This document shows, in pieces, positions 44,816 through 62,781 of a DNA stretch of 64,000 nt. Numbering within the stretch: position 1 is the stretch's first letter; each line of letters starts with the position of its first letter. Both the position numbers and the translations under genes were made by a program. Below the pieces are notes generated by a model. The model was not told the DNA's origin. It ran no database searches and saw nothing but the letters and a program-made list of their open reading frames with translations. Source of the DNA: Nitrospirota bacterium. GTDB lineage: Bacteria; Nitrospirota; Thermodesulfovibrionia; UBA6902; JAJYJJ01. Location of the stretch: positions 1 through 64,000 of the forward strand of contig JAJYJJ010000010.1 in NCBI GenBank assembly GCA_021789595.1, written 5' to 3'.

Positions 44816-46228
44816 ATGAATGAAAGGCAGAGGCTTCTTTCCCAGATACCATCTGTTGATGAGCTTTTAAAACTAAAGACAGTAGAGGGCTGGCTGAAGG
44901 CATACCCAAGGGGCGTAGTACTCACGGCCATTAGACATACCCTCGATATAAAGCGGGCATTGATATTAGCGGGTGAGACCCCTGAGATGACAACAGGGGC
45001 GATACTGGATAAGATAGGGGAGTCAATAAAGCGGCTCTCCACCTACAGGCTCAGGCCTCTTATAAACGCCACAGGCATTATCATCCATACCAATCTCGGC
45101 CGCTCCCTGCTTTCAAAAAGGGCAATTGAAAATATATGCAGTATATCCAACAGATACTCAAACCTTGAGTATGACCTGTCGAATGGAAAAAGGGGCAAGA
45201 GATATTCCCACATAAAGGAGATACTCAGGGAGATAACAGGGGCGGAGGATGCTATTGTCGTCAATAACAATGCAGCAGCGGTTCTGCTTTCCCTTAATAC
45301 CATTGCCAAAGGTAAAGAGGTTATCGTCTCAAGGGGCGAGCTTGTTGAGATAGGAGGTTCATTCAGAATCCCCGATGTTATGGCCTCAAGCGGTGCGGTC
45401 ATGAGGGAGGTCGGGACAACAAACAAGACCCATCTCAGGGACTACGAGGATGCCGTAAATGAAAACACCGCACTTTTGCTAAAGGTTCATACAAGCAATT
45501 ACAGGATAATTGGTTTTACAGCAGATGTGCCTGTTGCAGATATTGCGGCGATTGGGGCTGAAAGAGGGATACCAACGATGTTTGATCTCGGAAGCGGATG
45601 CCTTATAGACCTGTCCAGATATGGCATTGATGGAGAGCCAAATGCCAGGGATATAATAAAGGCAGGGGTTGATATTGTAAGCTTCAGCGGCGATAAACTG
45701 CTTGGCGGACCGCAGGGTGGTGTTATTGCAGGCAAGAAACACATCATCGAAAGGCTTGAGAAAAACCCGCTCACAAGGGCGCTCAGGATAGATAAATTGA
45801 CCCTTGCAGCTCTTGAGGCAACTCTGATGGAATACAGAGACGAGCAGAAGGCTGTTGAAAATATCCCGACGCTCAAGATGCTCTTACAGCCGATAAAGGA
45901 GATTAAAAACAGGGCACTCAGGATTGCAAAGGCCATAAAGGGTATCGCCATAAAGGATATCGAGGGGATAGATGTAGATGTCTTTCAGGAGTATTCCCAG
46001 GCAGGGGGCGGTTCACTTCCAGAGGCAGCGCTTCCAACATATGTCGTATCCATCAGGACAGCGGGGCTAACAGTAAATACCATCGAAGAGATATTAAGGA
46101 CTGGAGAGCCGCCTGTCATTGTGAGGATCAAGGATGATGCAGCCCTCTTTGATGCAAGGACAATACAGGATGCTGAGGTAGGAGAATTGGCAGGCCGTAT
46201 TAGATCAGCCCTTCGTGATCGCGATTAG
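44816..46228 (+). CDS. selA: L-seryl-tRNA(Sec) selenium transferase
   Basis: A 470-residue PLP enzyme that converts Ser-tRNA(Sec) to Sec-tRNA(Sec). It begins with the N-terminal [11 protein letters not shown] domain, the fold-type I core contains [20 protein letters not shown], the PLP lysine motif [16 protein letters not shown] and the C-terminal [10 protein letters not shown] segment. It is followed 8 bases later by selB. Its presence shows that the organism makes selenocysteine; a selenoprotein candidate lies at 59708. No selC tRNA was recognised in the window. Confidence 0.96.
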
Positions 46229-46236
46229 ATTGAGAT

Positions 46237-48117
46237 ATGCGATATGTAATACTTGGCACAGCAGGCCATATAGACCACGGTAAAAGCACACTTGTAAAGG
46301 CCCTTACAGGCATAGACCCTGACAGGCTGAAGGAAGAGAAAGAGCGCGGCATTACCATCGACCTGGGCTTTGCCGACCTGTCTTATCCAGATGGATTAAG
46401 GATCGGTATCGTTGATGTCCCCGGGCATGAGAGATTGATAAAGAACATGCTTGCAGGCGCAGGTGGTATTGATATGGTTATCCTCGTCATAGCAGCAGAT
46501 GAGGGGATCATGCCGCAAAGCCGTGAGCACCTGCATATATGCAATCTTCTCAGGATAAAGACAGGGATTATCGCTATCACAAAGGCAGACCTTGTTGATG
46601 AGGAATGGCTTGAACTTGTTACAGGAGAGATAAGGGATTTTGTAAAGGGGACATTCCTTGAAGGGGCAGAGATTATTCCTGTATCAGCAAAGACAGGATA
46701 CAATCTCGATCTCCTGAAGGATAGCATCAGGGATGCGGCTAACAGGGTCGAGCCGAAATCCATCAAGGGCCCTTTCAGGCTGCCTATAGACAGGGTTTTT
46801 ACACTTAAGGGCTTTGGTACAATAATAACAGGCACGGCAGTCTCTGGAGGCATCAGCCTTGATGAAACCATTGATATCCTGCCAAAAGGGCTGAAGGCAA
46901 GGGGCAGGTCTTTACAGAGTCATGGAGAATCTGTAAAGACCGCTTATGCAGGCCAGAGGGTAGCCATAAACATCCAGGGCATAGAAAAAGAGGCCATCCA
47001 GAGGGGGGATGTGATTGCTACCGCAGGCATATTCCATCCAACCACGGTTATCGATGCTAAAGTAGAAATCCTTCCCGATGCCCCCTCTGTAAAGAGCAGA
47101 AGCCTTATCCATTTTCACATAGGCACCTCTGAGATTGTTGCAAGGATAATACTGTATGACAGGGACATACTAAAGGCAGGGCAAGAATCTTACTGTCAGC
47201 TCAGACTCCAGTCACCTGTGATTGCTGTATCAGGCGACAGGTATATCATAAGGCGTTTCTCGCCATTACAGACCATTGGCGGCGGAGATGTCCTTGACCC
47301 TAACCCGAGGAGGAGAAAGAGGACTGAAGGCGTCGAGGATCTGGTTACATATGAGAAAGGCATATTGAAGGGCAAACTCTCTTTCAAGATATTAAAGGCA
47401 GGCATTGCTGGAATGACAGGGTTATCCCTTAATGGCTGGATAAAGGCAGAGCCTGATGCCATAAGTAATGCCGTCAAAGAAATGGAAAGGGATAGTGAGG
47501 TCATTAATCTTGACGATGTCCTTATACACAGGGATTCCTATAATAACTTCAGGGATAAGGCCATAGCATATCTGAGGGATTTTCATAAAGATAATCCATT
47601 AAGATCAGGTGTATCAAAGGAGGAGCTGAGGGCAGTATTCAAGGGCATTGATCAGAGGCTCTTTAACAGCCTCCTCATCTCGTTAAAAGAGACAGTGATA
47701 GAAAAGGATATTGTAAGGCTAAAGGATTTCAGGATAGCCTTAACTGAGGCAGACAAGGGCATAAAGGACAGGATCCTCCAGTTATATAAAAAAGGAGGTT
47801 TTCAGCCGCCTATGAAGGAGGAGCTCTGCCGTGGCCTTTCAATGGACATGAGGGAGGCATCTGACCTGCTCAAGCTCATGGCAAAAGAGGGCCTGCTTGT
47901 AAGGATAACAGATTCCCTTTTTATCACTGCTGAAAACTATGCAGGGATGATGGATGCCCTCAGGAGGTTCTTTGCCGAAAACCAGGAGATGGCTGTTTCA
48001 GAGTTCAGGGACATCCTCGGAACAACCCGCAAATACGCCCTTCCCTTTCTCGAATACCTGGACTCCAGTAAGATTACCATGAGGGTTGGTGATAAAAGGA
48101 GATTTATCGTGAAATAA
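46237..48117 (+). CDS. selB: Selenocysteine-specific elongation factor
   Basis: A 626-residue EF-Tu-like GTPase. P-loop [17 protein letters not shown], switch [10 protein letters not shown], and NKxD-like TKADLV lead the EF-Tu core (1-350). The C-terminal part has four winged-helix domains ending [19 protein letters not shown], which bind the SECIS hairpin of selenoprotein mRNAs. It delivers Sec-tRNA at UGA codons. It ends in a 14-base convergent overlap with uvrA. The gene pair selA-selB is intact. Confidence 0.96.
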
Positions 48118-59266: not shown

Positions 59267-59323
59267 TTGACAAAACATATAGAAATATAAGAATATTTGA
59301 ATATATTTACAATGGAGGTTGCT
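59267..59323 (+). promoter_or_regulatory. ArsR gene promoter region with inverted repeat
   Basis: TTGACA (59267-59272) is followed by AT-rich DNA in which ATATT-TG-AATAT (59294-59305) forms an inverted repeat typical of ArsR/SmtB operators, and by GGAGG (59314-59318). The -10 element is not clear-cut. Autorepression of the ArsR gene and probably of the downstream DsrE operon is expected. Confidence 0.5.
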
Positions 59324-59665
59324 GTGAGAGCAATTGAGAAACGGATTGAGTTATTAAAGGCGGTTGCACATCCTGTCAGGATAAGGATATTGGAGGAGCT
59401 TACGAAGGGGGTTAAGTGTGTAAGCGACATGGAGGAGTTCCTTGAGATAAGCCAGCCGAACATCTCGCAGCATCTCAGCCTTTTACGGCATTACGGTGTT
59501 ATTGATTATTATGTTGATGGAAGGCTCAGATGCTATTTTCTGAAAGACCCTATTGTGCCTGACCTTATTGAGTTACTACGGAAGGATTATCTTAAAGAAC
59601 TGCCTGCTCCAGCATGCTGTCCTGTGACAAAGAAGGGAAGATATCCAGGGGAAAGGAGGAGATAA
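59324..59665 (+). CDS. ArsR-family regulator of the sulfur-relay operon
   Basis: A 113-residue winged-helix repressor. Starting GTG at 59324 behind GGAGG with 5-base spacing, it contains AVAHPVRIRILEELTKG, VSDMEEFLEISQPNISQHLSLLRHYGVI (recognition helix) and the wing YYVDGRLRCYFL. Cys residues occur at KCVSD and at the C-terminal ACC pair, which could sense metals, sulfide or polysulfide. It lies 42 bases before the DsrE selenoprotein gene. A second ArsR gene is at 62016. Confidence 0.88.
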   Translation: MRAIEKRIELLKAVAHPVRIRILEELTKGVKCVSDMEEFLEISQPNISQHLSLLRHYGVIDYYVDGRLRCYFLKDPIVPDLIELLRKDYLKELPAPACCPVTKKGRYPGERRR

Positions 59666-59707
59666 TCTGTCAAGGCCGAAACGCCTTTAATGAAAGGAGG
59701 TTAAAAA

Positions 59708-60064
59708 ATGGCAAAGAAGATAACATTATTTCTGAACACATCGCCGTACACATACGAGAATACCTACACTGCGATAAGACTGGCAGAGGCAGGACTTGAG
59801 AATGGCCATGAGGTCCGTCTCGTTGCATCTGCCGATGGTGTTTACAACTTTCTAAAAGGACAGAAGGGGAAGGGACTGCCGCATGCAGCAGATAACTTCA
59901 GGACCCTGATGGATAAGGGCATGAAGGTAGACCTCTGAGGGGGCTGTGTAAACTTCCGCAGTGCTGCGGGAGAAAGCTATGTCGAGGGTCCTGAAAAGGG
60001 TTCGCTAAAGGGCCTTTTCAACCTGATGCACCAGTCTGACATCTTTATTAATCTCGGTTTTTAG
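59708..60064 (+). CDS. DsrE/TusD-like sulfur carrier with in-frame TGA (putative selenoprotein)
   Basis: The frame encodes a DsrE-fold protein starting KKITLFLNTSPYTYENTYTA. It meets TGA at codon 77 (59936-59938), then continues uninterrupted for 41 sense codons to TAG at 60062-60064. The junction reads M-K-V-D-L-U-G-G-C-V-N-F-R. In DsrE/TusD proteins the catalytic cysteine lies at about this position (Cys78 in TusD), so TGA would encode selenocysteine in a UxxC motif. A hairpin 59953-59972 has 8 base pairs and a GTGC loop 22 bases after TGA, fitting bacterial SECIS rules. selA and selB lie in the window. With Sec the protein has 118 residues; otherwise it would be cut to 76. Confidence 0.75.
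59953..59972 (+). promoter_or_regulatory. Candidate bacterial SECIS hairpin
   Basis: Pairs C53-G72, T54-A71, T55.G70, C56-G69, C57-G68, G58-C67, C59-G66, A60-T65 (positions 59900+n) close a tetraloop G-T-G-C at 59961-59964. The loop begins with G followed by T, as in the E. coli fdhF SECIS, and begins 22 bases after the TGA codon; known bacterial elements span roughly 16-37 bases. Confidence 0.6.
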
Positions 60065-60073
60065 GAGGGGGAA

Positions 60074-60424
60074 ATGGATAATCTTCTTGTGATATTGAGA
60101 AGGCCGCCATACGGCGTTGTTAATGCAGCAGAGGCCATAAGGCACGCAGGTGGCGCTAAAACATTTGATTACGGGCCGAAATTGTTTCTGATAGACAGTG
60201 GCGTCTGTCTTGCAAAGAAAGGCCAGAATACTGGAGATTCTGGTTTTACAAACCTTGGAGAAAACCTTGATCTCCTCTCAGGAGAGATGGAGATATATGC
60301 AGATGAGGAGTCATTGAAGGAATACAGGATTAATCCTGAAGACCTTGTTGAAGGAGTCAAGGTCGTAAATAAAGAGGCTCTCAGACAGGCATTAAGAGAA
60401 TCTCAGTCAGTGATGATATTTTAA
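60074..60424 (+). CDS. DsrF/TusC-like sulfur relay subunit
   Basis: A 116-residue DsrE/DsrF-fold protein: LLVILRRPPYGVVNAAEAIRHAGG as the first strand-helix and KLFLIDSGVCLAKKGQ as the second, typical of DsrF/TusC. A single Cys at about 43 lies in the second strand. With DsrE and DsrH it would form a hetero-oligomer that passes persulfide sulfur. GGAGGGGG precedes ATG; it begins 9 bases after the selenoprotein gene stop. Confidence 0.85.
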   Translation: MDNLLVILRRPPYGVVNAAEAIRHAGGAKTFDYGPKLFLIDSGVCLAKKGQNTGDSGFTNLGENLDLLSGEMEIYADEESLKEYRINPEDLVEGVKVVNKEALRQALRESQSVMIF

Positions 60425-60451: not shown

Positions 60452-60715
60452 ATGCTTTTTTTGATCTCAAGTGCACCTGATGCAAAAGAGTTTCAAAGTG
60501 CATATAAACTTGCAAAGGACATGGATGCAGACATATGCCTTTTGCAGAATGCAGTCTATGCAGCAAGGCAGACAAAGGATAATAACATATATGTGCTTGC
60601 TGATGATATGAGGCTAAGGGGAATAGCTGAAACCGAGATAGCAGGCAGGGTTATAGACTACAGCCAGCTTATGGATATGATGGCTGAAGCAGATAAGGTG
60701 GTTGGGATGTTCTAA
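60452..60715 (+). CDS. DsrH/TusB-like sulfur relay subunit
   Basis: An 87-residue protein of the DsrH/TusB family, the smallest subunit of DsrEFH/TusBCD complexes. It begins LFLISSAPDAKEFQSAYKLAK and contains ADICLLQNAVYAAR, in which the family Cys is in ICLLQ, and IAETEIAGRVIDYSQLMDMM. The gene order E-F-H is the same as in sulfur oxidisers, although DsrC and DsrAB are not in the window. GGAGG precedes ATG. Confidence 0.88.
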   Translation: MLFLISSAPDAKEFQSAYKLAKDMDADICLLQNAVYAARQTKDNNIYVLADDMRLRGIAETEIAGRVIDYSQLMDMMAEADKVVGMF

Positions 60716-60819: not shown

Positions 60820-60831
60820 ATGGAGGCAATG

Positions 60832-62019
60832 ATGGCGAAGATAGTAATAATAGGTGGTTCATTCGGAGGGCTCACAGCAGCATTTGAACTAAAAAGGCAC
60901 CTCGGTAAGAAGGCAGATGTGACTGTGGTATGCGATACTGACAGGTTTATCTTCATTCCATCCCTGCCATGGGTATCAATGGGATGGCGCAAGGCTAAAG
61001 ACATCACCCTTTCTCTAAGAGAGATCCTGCTGCTAAAGGATATTAATCTTATCACAGAGGCAGCAGCAGGTGTTGATGCTGATTCATCAAAGGTTGTTAC
61101 AAAAACACAGGAGATTCCATATGACTATCTGGTGGTAGCTACTGGACCACATCTATGCTTTGAGGAGGTCCCGGGATTTAGCCGTGAGAAGGGGTTTATA
61201 GAATGCATCTTTACCCTTGAGCAGGCAGAAAGGGCACATCAGGCATGGAACAGATTTCTCGAAGATCCGGGCAATGTGGTTGTTGGTTCTGTCCAGGGTG
61301 TAAGCTGCTTTGGTCCTCCATACGAGTATGCCTTTGAGATCGACGCAGAACTCAGAAGGAGAAAGATAAGACACAAGGTTCCGATATCCTTTGTGACATC
61401 TGAACCCTATATAGGTCATTTTGGCGTTGGAGGGCTTGGAAAGTCAAAGAGAATTATGGAGGATGAATTCGCAGAAAGGGATATAAAGGTGTTTGTCAAC
61501 CAGGCAGTCGAGGAGTTTACGCCTGAGGATGTAAGGCTCAAGGACGGTACAAAACTGCCTTTTAAGCTGGGCATGTTTGCCCCTGCCATGAAGGGTGTGC
61601 CTGCGGTGGCGCACCTCGGCAATCCAAGGGGTTTTATCCCTGTGGATAAAAACTACAGGCATACAAGATATAAAAACATCTTTGCTGTTGGTGTTGCAGT
61701 TGCCATTGCACCGCCTGAGCCAACGCCTGTGCCAACAGGTGTGCCCAAGACAGGTTATATGACTGTAAAGATGGCAAAAACTTCATCCGTGTCTATTGTA
61801 TCAGATATTACAGGAGGTGTTCCTCCAGAAGGAATTCCTATTGATGTCCTCTGCCTCATGGATATGGGCAATACTGCTGCATACATGAAGGCAAAACCAG
61901 TGCTCCCGCCGAGACAGGAATCTGAACTTAAAAGCGGGATTGTATATAAATGGATGAAGATCGGGTTTGAGAAATATTTTCTGTGGAAGATGAGGAGGGG
62001 GCTGAGCGGATTACCGTGA
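60832..62019 (+). CDS. Sulfide:quinone oxidoreductase-like flavoprotein
   Basis: A 395-residue FAD protein. FAD-binding GGSFGGLTAAFELKRHL (residues 7-23), the second strand VVATGPHL, the conserved SQR-type VQGVSCFGPPYEYAFEIDA and FAVGVAVAIAPPEPTPVPTGVPKTGYM near the C-terminus match SQR/flavocytochrome c-like enzymes. The C-terminal amphipathic tail (KYFLWKMRRGL) may bind the membrane. It would oxidise sulfide or polysulfide and reduce quinone. ATG 60832 is preferred over 60820 on ribosome-site spacing. The stop overlaps the GTG start of the second ArsR gene. Confidence 0.85.
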   Translation: MAKIVIIGGSFGGLTAAFELKRHLGKKADVTVVCDTDRFIFIPSLPWVSMGWRKAKDITLSLREILLLKDINLITEAAAGVDADSSKVVTKTQEIPYDYLVVATGPHLCFEEVPGFSREKGFIECIFTLEQAERAHQAWNRFLEDPGNVVVGSVQGVSCFGPPYEYAFEIDAELRRRKIRHKVPISFVTSEPYIGHFGVGGLGKSKRIMEDEFAERDIKVFVNQAVEEFTPEDVRLKDGTKLPFKLGMFAPAMKGVPAVAHLGNPRGFIPVDKNYRHTRYKNIFAVGVAVAIAPPEPTPVPTGVPKTGYMTVKMAKTSSVSIVSDITGGVPPEGIPIDVLCLMDMGNTAAYMKAKPVLPPRQESELKSGIVYKWMKIGFEKYFLWKMRRGLSGLP

Positions 62020-62357
62020 GAAAAGAGATATTAGAGTTCCATGCAGAATTTTGCAAGACCTTTTCCAACCCTAAAAGGCTTGAGATACTCGACCTTCTTA
62101 AGGCAGGGGAGATAACTGTTGGTGCTATTACTGAAAAGATTGGAGTCTCAAAGGCGAATGTGTCCCAGCATCTGACAATAATGCGTATGATGCGGATCCT
62201 AAAGACAAGAAGGGACGGCACAAAGATTTACTATAGGATAGCCAATGAGAAACTTACTCAGGCCTGCAGTCTTATGCAGGATGCCCTTGCACAGCTTATG
62301 GAAGGTGTCCCTGTGGTTCGAAAACAAGGAACTGTAAATATAAAGGATGGGAGATAA
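62016..62357 (+). CDS. ArsR-family regulator
   Basis: A 113-residue winged-helix regulator: FCKTFSNPKRLEILDLLKAG, then VGAITEKIGVSKANVSQHLTIMRMMRIL as the recognition element and TRRDGTKIYYRIANEKL as wing. It begins with GTG in the overlap GTGA with the SQR stop; a longer frame from 61983 is possible. Cys occurs in FCKTF and in QACSLM. It may sense reactive sulfur or metal and controls the following DsrE-type gene and possibly the whole operon. Confidence 0.87.
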   Translation: MRKEILEFHAEFCKTFSNPKRLEILDLLKAGEITVGAITEKIGVSKANVSQHLTIMRMMRILKTRRDGTKIYYRIANEKLTQACSLMQDALAQLMEGVPVVRKQGTVNIKDGR

Positions 62358-62358
62358 A

Positions 62359-62781
62359 ATGACAAAGATAACTAAGAATGTATCCATAATGTGTTTTCAT
62401 GATGAACTATGTCAGGTCTACAATGCCCTGATGACTGCATTGAGTCTATTGAGGGAGGGTTCAAAGGTTACGATATTTTTTGGTTCAAGAGGTGTAAATG
62501 CAGTACATAAAGAAAAGGTGAAGAACCTGCAGTGCCTTCCCGACCAGCCAAAAGAGATTGGAGATGCAGTAATGAAAAGGATGGAGGAGATGGAACTTCC
62601 GAATGTAGAGGATTTGTTTGTTATGCTTCATATGGAAGGTGCAAGGCTTCTTGCCTGTCCTCTTAATGTTCCTCTTTTTGGAATGAGTGAGACAAATTTC
62701 ATTGAAGGGGTAGAGCTTGCAAACCCTGCTACATACTATAAAGAAGTAGTCATTCAGGCAGATATGAATCTGACTTTTTAA
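62359..62781 (+). CDS. DsrE-family protein
   Basis: A 140-residue protein of the DsrE/peroxiredoxin-like class. It starts with a Cys-bearing strand (VSIMCFHDELCQVYNALMTALSLLREG), has FFGSRGVNAVHKEK, and a segment MEGARLLACPLNVPLFGM with the likely reactive Cys in the position used by DsrE2/YeiE-like sulfur carriers. GGGAG precedes ATG 62359. It is the last gene of the sulfur-relay operon and may be a second sulfur carrier. Confidence 0.8.
   Translation: MTKITKNVSIMCFHDELCQVYNALMTALSLLREGSKVTIFFGSRGVNAVHKEKVKNLQCLPDQPKEIGDAVMKRMEEMELPNVEDLFVMLHMEGARLLACPLNVPLFGMSETNFIEGVELANPATYYKEVVIQADMNLTF

Follow-up and report, generated by a model that had tools for sequence, protein, structure and literature searches.

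In Allochromatium vinosum, DsrE binds sulfur at Cys78 and donates it to DsrC, and Cys20 of the DsrH subunit is essential in vivo (PMC3397948). A further complex, DsrEFH type II, which uses Cys67 and belongs to a YTD cluster (PMC13293266, PMC13047784), was described in 2026 from protein HMMs (PMC13293266). A current question is whether sulfate reducers are able to oxidise sulfur as well, with DsrEFH serving as the marker (PMC13293266). DsrE-like selenoproteins with a UxxC motif have appeared in published lists since 2005–2006, so the kind itself is already known: passages of the respective papers list them from the Sargasso Sea (PMC1088965), where they are grouped with redox selenoproteins, from Desulfovibrio vulgaris (PMC1794560) and from GOS (PMC2398784), and a passage of a 2026 review names WP_014524487.1 (PMC13188914). 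Here we report on a selenocysteine (Sec)-containing DsrE encoded at the head of a dsrEFH operon in a Nitrospirota genome. The window, that is, the whole 64-kb stretch of DNA analysed, holds the following features:

44816–46228, + strand: putative selA (selenocysteine synthase), named after an earlier note on this DNA (ORF position)
46237–48117, + strand: selB, Sec-specific elongation factor (TIGR00475, 390 bits, above the curated cut-off)
59297–59665, + strand: ArsR-family regulator with four invariant Cys, start codon uncertain (Pfam HTH_5, 8.8e-12)
59693–59700, + strand: Shine–Dalgarno sequence AAAGGAGG of dsrE, preceding the ATG at 59708 (direct sequence reading)
59708–60064, + strand: dsrE(Sec), operon gene 1, 118 aa with U77 in UGGC (PF02635, conserved TGA, fold match)
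59936–59938, + strand: UGA, almost certainly read as selenocysteine, residue 77 (homolog column, tRNA-Sec UCA, SelB above cut-off)
59953–59972, + strand: SECIS hairpin, stem CUUCCGCA/UGCGGGAG, apical loop GUGC (covarying among Sec forms, lacking from Cys orthologs)
60074–60424, + strand: dsrF-like subunit without conserved Cys (PF02635, 4.3e-13; TIGR03010 TusC, 1.4e-10, below cut-off)
60452–60715, + strand: dsrH-like subunit without conserved Cys (PF04077, 2e-9; TIGR03011, 44.8 bits against a cut-off of 49.2)
60820–62019, + strand: sulfide:quinone reductase (SQR) homolog with three largely conserved Cys, C129, C163 and C345 (phmmer 2.3e-94 to the solved SQR 3sy4)
61983–62357, + strand: second ArsR-family regulator (NF033788, 82 bits, above cut-off)
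62347–62781, + strand: DsrE2-like sulfur carrier, DrsE_2 (PF13686, 5.9e-15)

The dsrE(Sec) frame runs from the ATG at 59708 to a TGA at codon 77, stays open for 41 more codons and closes at a TAG, giving 118 residues. PF02635, the Pfam DsrE family, spans residues 3–115 and hence crosses the TGA (E 3.9e-18; 66 bits against a gathering threshold of 22.7), and the Sec lies within a UxxC motif (UGGC). The earlier note had read the frame, the codon and the L-U-G-G-C context in the same way, and had foreseen the 76-aa product that plain ORF calling indeed returns. The three Dsr proteins score below the curated cut-offs for TusD, TusC and TusB (20/89, 41/94 and 45/49 bits, respectively), and at 1e-5 DsrE(Sec) matched no NCBIfam model; a 76-residue fragment is hence the likely outcome of standard annotation. 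Because ordinary gene calling truncates the protein, the selenium form of DsrE is easily overlooked. A single-TGA readthrough frame does not suffice as evidence, since six other such open frames of similar size, mostly antisense, occur by chance in the window, and the 50-nt stretch folded alone is only mildly special (z −1.72; 11 of 200 shuffles equally good). The case for recoding consequently rests on comparison, and alignment tests were used in place of the single-sequence fold, which is weak evidence for a SECIS element.

The search for relatives covered 120 close genomes and 396 genomes of the phylum; those relatives that have names are Nitrospirota, and several are placed in Thermodesulfovibrionia. 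Across 98 distinct homologous loci, the codon aligned with residue 77 is TGA in 87, TGC in six and TGT in five, and never anything else. Four of the Cys forms (L096–L099, all from one family) are full-length orthologs with LCGTC. Differences between the window and 12 close relatives after the TGA amount to 0.24, 0.07 and 0.49 at codon positions 1, 2 and 3, a pattern by which the region 3' of the TGA can be said to evolve as protein. The earlier note had proposed looking for Cys among homologs in this column and for conservation downstream of it; 11 of the 98 loci carry such a Cys, and second-position differences are low relative to third-position ones. It had also raised the matter of a misread base, and the recurrence of the same codon in dozens of separate genomes shows that the TGA is no such error. 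The protein tree has two label changes between Sec and Cys, which may have run in either direction. On these alignments, Sec at the DsrE column appears to be the rule for DsrEFH of this kind in Nitrospirota.

The hairpin lies 15–34 nt downstream of the TGA, its arms at 59953–59960 and 59965–59972 forming eight pairs around a GTGC loop. The pairs and the loop are those the earlier note had described, and its placing of the start 22 bases downstream suits the loop (at 23 nt from the last TGA base) and not the stem (at 15 nt). In the window, the hairpin exceeds synonymous recodings of its peptide in stability (z −2.9, p 0.008), with mean z values of −2.3 and −1.75 in the Sec groups compared with −0.28 in the Cys orthologs. 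In the main Sec group (n=68) 87% of stem cells are paired, against 47–57% with slid partners, and the corresponding values for a 114-residue Sec paralog group (n=16) are 80% and 24–50%, whereas the four Cys orthologs have lost the upper stem (0/4 at three adjacent pairs). An independent count over 24 sequences gave 87% of cells paired versus 46–58% when slid; 26 cells showed changes in both partners, and none of 500 shuffles reached the observed covariation score of 0.478. In 79/84 Sec forms, versus 3/11 Cys forms, the loop GU is found at an unchanged offset; the loop codon nearly always has T as its third base, be the residue Arg, Gly or Cys, and it is this kept wobble T that retains the GU. 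Conservation across the Sec forms thus sets the hairpin above chance.

The machinery for Sec insertion is present. SelB sits in the window where the earlier note had placed it, and the host genome (99% complete) encodes a tRNA-Sec with anticodon UCA; a weaker second match to the tRNA-Sec model (G000:C33:30449-30543, 55.5 bits) was not called by ARAGORN. The selD gene of the same genome (G000:C11:110795-111715) has a single TGA in frame, as a SelD selenoprotein should, and is a positive control for Sec decoding in this host. SelB scores above cut-off in 49 of 51 Sec-carrier genomes and in one of 11 Cys-carrier genomes (Fisher p 7e-9, indicative only because the carriers are related by descent); two Sec carriers without a full SelB, G155 and G181, probably reflect assembly gaps. 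Taken together, the TGA-or-Cys column, the covarying hairpin, the Sec machinery and the distribution of SelB among carriers make decoding of UGA77 as Sec close to certain on comparative grounds. That the TGA is instead a true stop or a sequencing error, leaving a pseudogene or a 76-residue protein, is what the ordinary ORF call would imply, yet we give this reading practically no chance: TGA recurs at the identical column in 87 loci beside existing Cys orthologs, the protein is conserved beyond it, and both the hairpin and the Sec machinery speak against it. Conservation across homologs excludes a pseudogene, stop or base error.

The gene order around dsrE(Sec) is conserved: four-Cys ArsR, dsrE(Sec), dsrF and dsrH, usually followed by SQR, an arrangement shared by the four Cys orthologs. 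Among Sec loci with enough flanking sequence, dsrF adjoins dsrE(Sec) in 81/82, dsrH follows in 78/79 and 67/80 have an ArsR gene upstream; an SQR homolog was found downstream in 44/54 Sec loci and not in the other ten, and a DrsE_2 gene lies nearby in 22/52 loci. One locus (L040:6001-6354) showed dsrH downstream of dsrE(Sec) but no detectable dsrF, and a second copy in the same assembly (L041) has dsrF. C43, C81, C109 and C110 of the upstream ArsR ORF are invariant in 65/65 orthologs, with the adjacent pair near the C terminus, which suggests a sensor of thiols, persulfides or metalloids. A check of Cys conservation found none conserved in DsrF or DsrH of the Sec operon; an equivalent of Cys20 was not found in its DsrH, where only C29 occurs, mixed with V. 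Within the subfamily, 84/84 Sec forms have the second chalcogen of the UxxC motif, C80, and the four Cys orthologs have CGTC. Since DsrF and DsrH lack conserved Cys, U77 and C80 are the sole conserved chalcogen residues of the complex. The host genome and nearly all other Sec carriers possess dsrA. The host also has a separate Cys-type dsrH-dsrE-dsrF-tusA set on contig C16 (L160:13142-14509), about 12 kb from dsrA, whose DsrE has Cys at the U77 column (motif ACEAC); the Sec complex thus exists alongside a Cys-type one and does not take its place.

Several other Sec forms of DsrE were seen. The paralog group of 113–114 residues (L081, L083, L085-L095, L114, L115 and L134) has the motif IUTGC and a SECIS loop GGUC, with dsrF next and usually dsrH too. 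A 143-residue form (L031:1501-1929, L034:1501-1929, L048:1277-1705 and L072:4374-4802) carries a Cys-containing insert of roughly 25 residues, about 20 residues past UxxC. A distant second DsrE-family selenoprotein candidate, with the motif AUGTC, occurs in genomes of one family, f26 (L107:2998-3339, L108:2998-3339 and L109:220-561), followed downstream by another SQR-like flavoprotein.

An AlphaFold2 model of dsrE(Sec) built from a 46-sequence alignment has a pLDDT of 92, and Foldseek matched it to YchN, DsrF, DsrE, a Sulfolobus DsrE/F and TusD (TM 0.84–0.88 over the query), with values of 0.87–0.88 for YchN and DsrE (2hy5_A: 0.88 over the query). Designed pentatricopeptide proteins among the profile matches are repeat artefacts. 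In the profile alignment U77 falls in the column of the YchN Cys and of Cys78 of Allochromatium DsrE (2hy5_A). The DsrE/TusD-like carrier that the earlier note had proposed is thus borne out in its fold and in the alignment to Cys78 that the note had suggested making, but not as a member of the TusD/DsrE equivalog, for which the protein scores 20 bits against a cut-off of 89.

On balance we think it probable that 59708–60064 is the gene for the DsrE subunit of a sulfur-transfer complex of the DsrEFH type, with selenocysteine as the residue that carries sulfur. This reading draws on the fold and the column shared with DsrE Cys78, the adjacent dsrF and dsrH, the SQR in the operon, the presence of C80 in every Sec form, the lack of any other conserved Cys in DsrF and DsrH, and dsrA in nearly all carriers. 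We infer that sulfur is transferred through the U77 selenol. With UGA77 decoded with the help of the SECIS hairpin, DsrE(Sec) would form a complex with its operon partners DsrF and DsrH; sulfane sulfur from the neighbouring SQR, or arriving via a thiol carrier, would be bound on U77 as a selenopersulfide (Se–S) until an acceptor, for example TusA or DsrC, takes it over; by closing a selenenylsulfide with U77, C80 could aid the release or reset the site. Rising reactive sulfur may switch the operon on through the four-Cys ArsR encoded upstream, and for the Dsr pathway itself the genome would use its other, Cys-type DsrEFH-TusA cluster near dsrAB.

Several observations pull away from a carrier. 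UxxC is a redox motif, and A. vinosum DsrE has no second Cys at that place, so DsrE(Sec) may act in redox catalysis and not as a carrier; moreover, the TusD score is far below cut-off, DsrH appears to lack a Cys20 equivalent and SQR was not detected downstream in 10 of 54 loci. As a redox enzyme, DsrE(Sec) would use a U77–C80 selenenylsulfide to reduce polysulfides, persulfides or peroxides, with DsrFH as scaffolding and sulfur leaving as sulfide. The invariant UxxC and the CGTC of the Cys orthologs fit this proposal, as do the CKTC motif aligned in YchN, the closest solved sequence by profile, the lack of a reactive partner Cys in DsrF and DsrH, and the placing of DsrE-like proteins among redox selenoproteins in the corresponding passage of PMC1088965. 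The order of dsrF and dsrH, however, is that of the carrier complex, U77 occupies the column of the carrier Cys78, and the operon showed no recognisable dedicated reductase; we regard a redox enzyme as unlikely. We hold it less likely still that the operon handles metalloids or selenium, such as arsenic or reactive selenium, with ArsR as a metalloid sensor. Selenols bind soft metals and the regulator has its four invariant Cys, with the adjacent pair near the C terminus; against this, the operon genes that were searched include none for arsenic or mercury, SQR and DsrE2 speak for sulfur, and dsrA occurs in nearly all Sec carriers.

If sulfur is indeed carried on U77, the operon might represent a third, selenium-dependent type of DsrEFH sulfurtransferase, in which SQR supplies sulfane sulfur, a selenopersulfide carries it, and U77 and C80 are the only conserved chalcogens; such a complex would be common among sulfate-reducing Nitrospirota and would escape censuses of called proteins. 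We see the chances for and against this fuller proposal as even. A DsrEFH complex with a selenoprotein as its sulfur-carrying subunit, and Sec as its rule in Nitrospirota, appears to be new, as we did not find it described. In the open-access literature, outside which many subscription papers lie, no description of a Sec DsrE within a DsrEFH operon was found: the nearest text combining selenocysteine and DsrEFH is a study of Sulfobacillus genomes that mentions each term once, selenocysteine with TusD led only to a review of tRNA sulfur, and Nitrospirota with selenoprotein to nothing relevant. The word stem 'selen' is absent from the type II paper (PMC13293266). Among plasmid sequences, protein searches found only distant members of the DsrE family, and a search with DNA found nothing. 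If many Nitrospirota dsrE genes are split by an in-frame UGA, DsrEFH will be undercounted in protein-based censuses, and, if true, the proposed relay would be a rare example of selenium in sulfur carriage instead of redox catalysis. Since the operon occurs in nature with either a Sec or a Cys ortholog, it offers ready pairs for testing what selenium contributes.

In relation to described systems, the DsrE-like selenoproteins share the PF02635 fold, the UxxC Sec and a bacterial SECIS with the protein reported here (compared by description), and the passages on them in PMC1088965, PMC1794560, PMC2398784 and PMC13188914 leave DsrEFH operons, SQR and Nitrospirota unmentioned. A. vinosum DsrEFH (type I) and E. 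coli TusBCD (2hy5, 2d1p) resemble the Sec operon in the adjacency of dsrE, dsrF and dsrH, in fold (TM 0.88) and in the position of U77 at the Cys78 column. The Sec complex differs from them in having Sec for Cys and UxxC for a lone Cys (CVAA, with no second Cys, in A. vinosum DsrE), in a location not beside dsrAB, in an SQR within the operon and in a DsrH without the Cys20 equivalent. Given that UxxC stands where A. vinosum DsrE shows CVAA, E. coli YchN (1jx7) is as close as DsrE: it is the best profile match (E 7.8e-16), with CKTC (CxxC) aligned at the UxxC position, although it has Cys and not Sec, and its likeness rests on fold and sequence. DsrEFH type II is likewise a DsrEFH-like complex of sulfate-reducing lineages including Nitrospirota, and a DsrH-like subunit without Cys20 occurs in cable bacteria (PMC13293266, PMC13047784). 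Type II sits with tusA and yeeE, neither of which occurs among the genes after dsrE(Sec) in the window (yeeE homologs lie on other contigs of the genome), and it uses Cys, whereas the Sec operon has Sec, ArsR and SQR instead. The C16 DsrEFH-TusA cluster of the host is of this general type II kind, and stands in the genome separate from the Sec operon.
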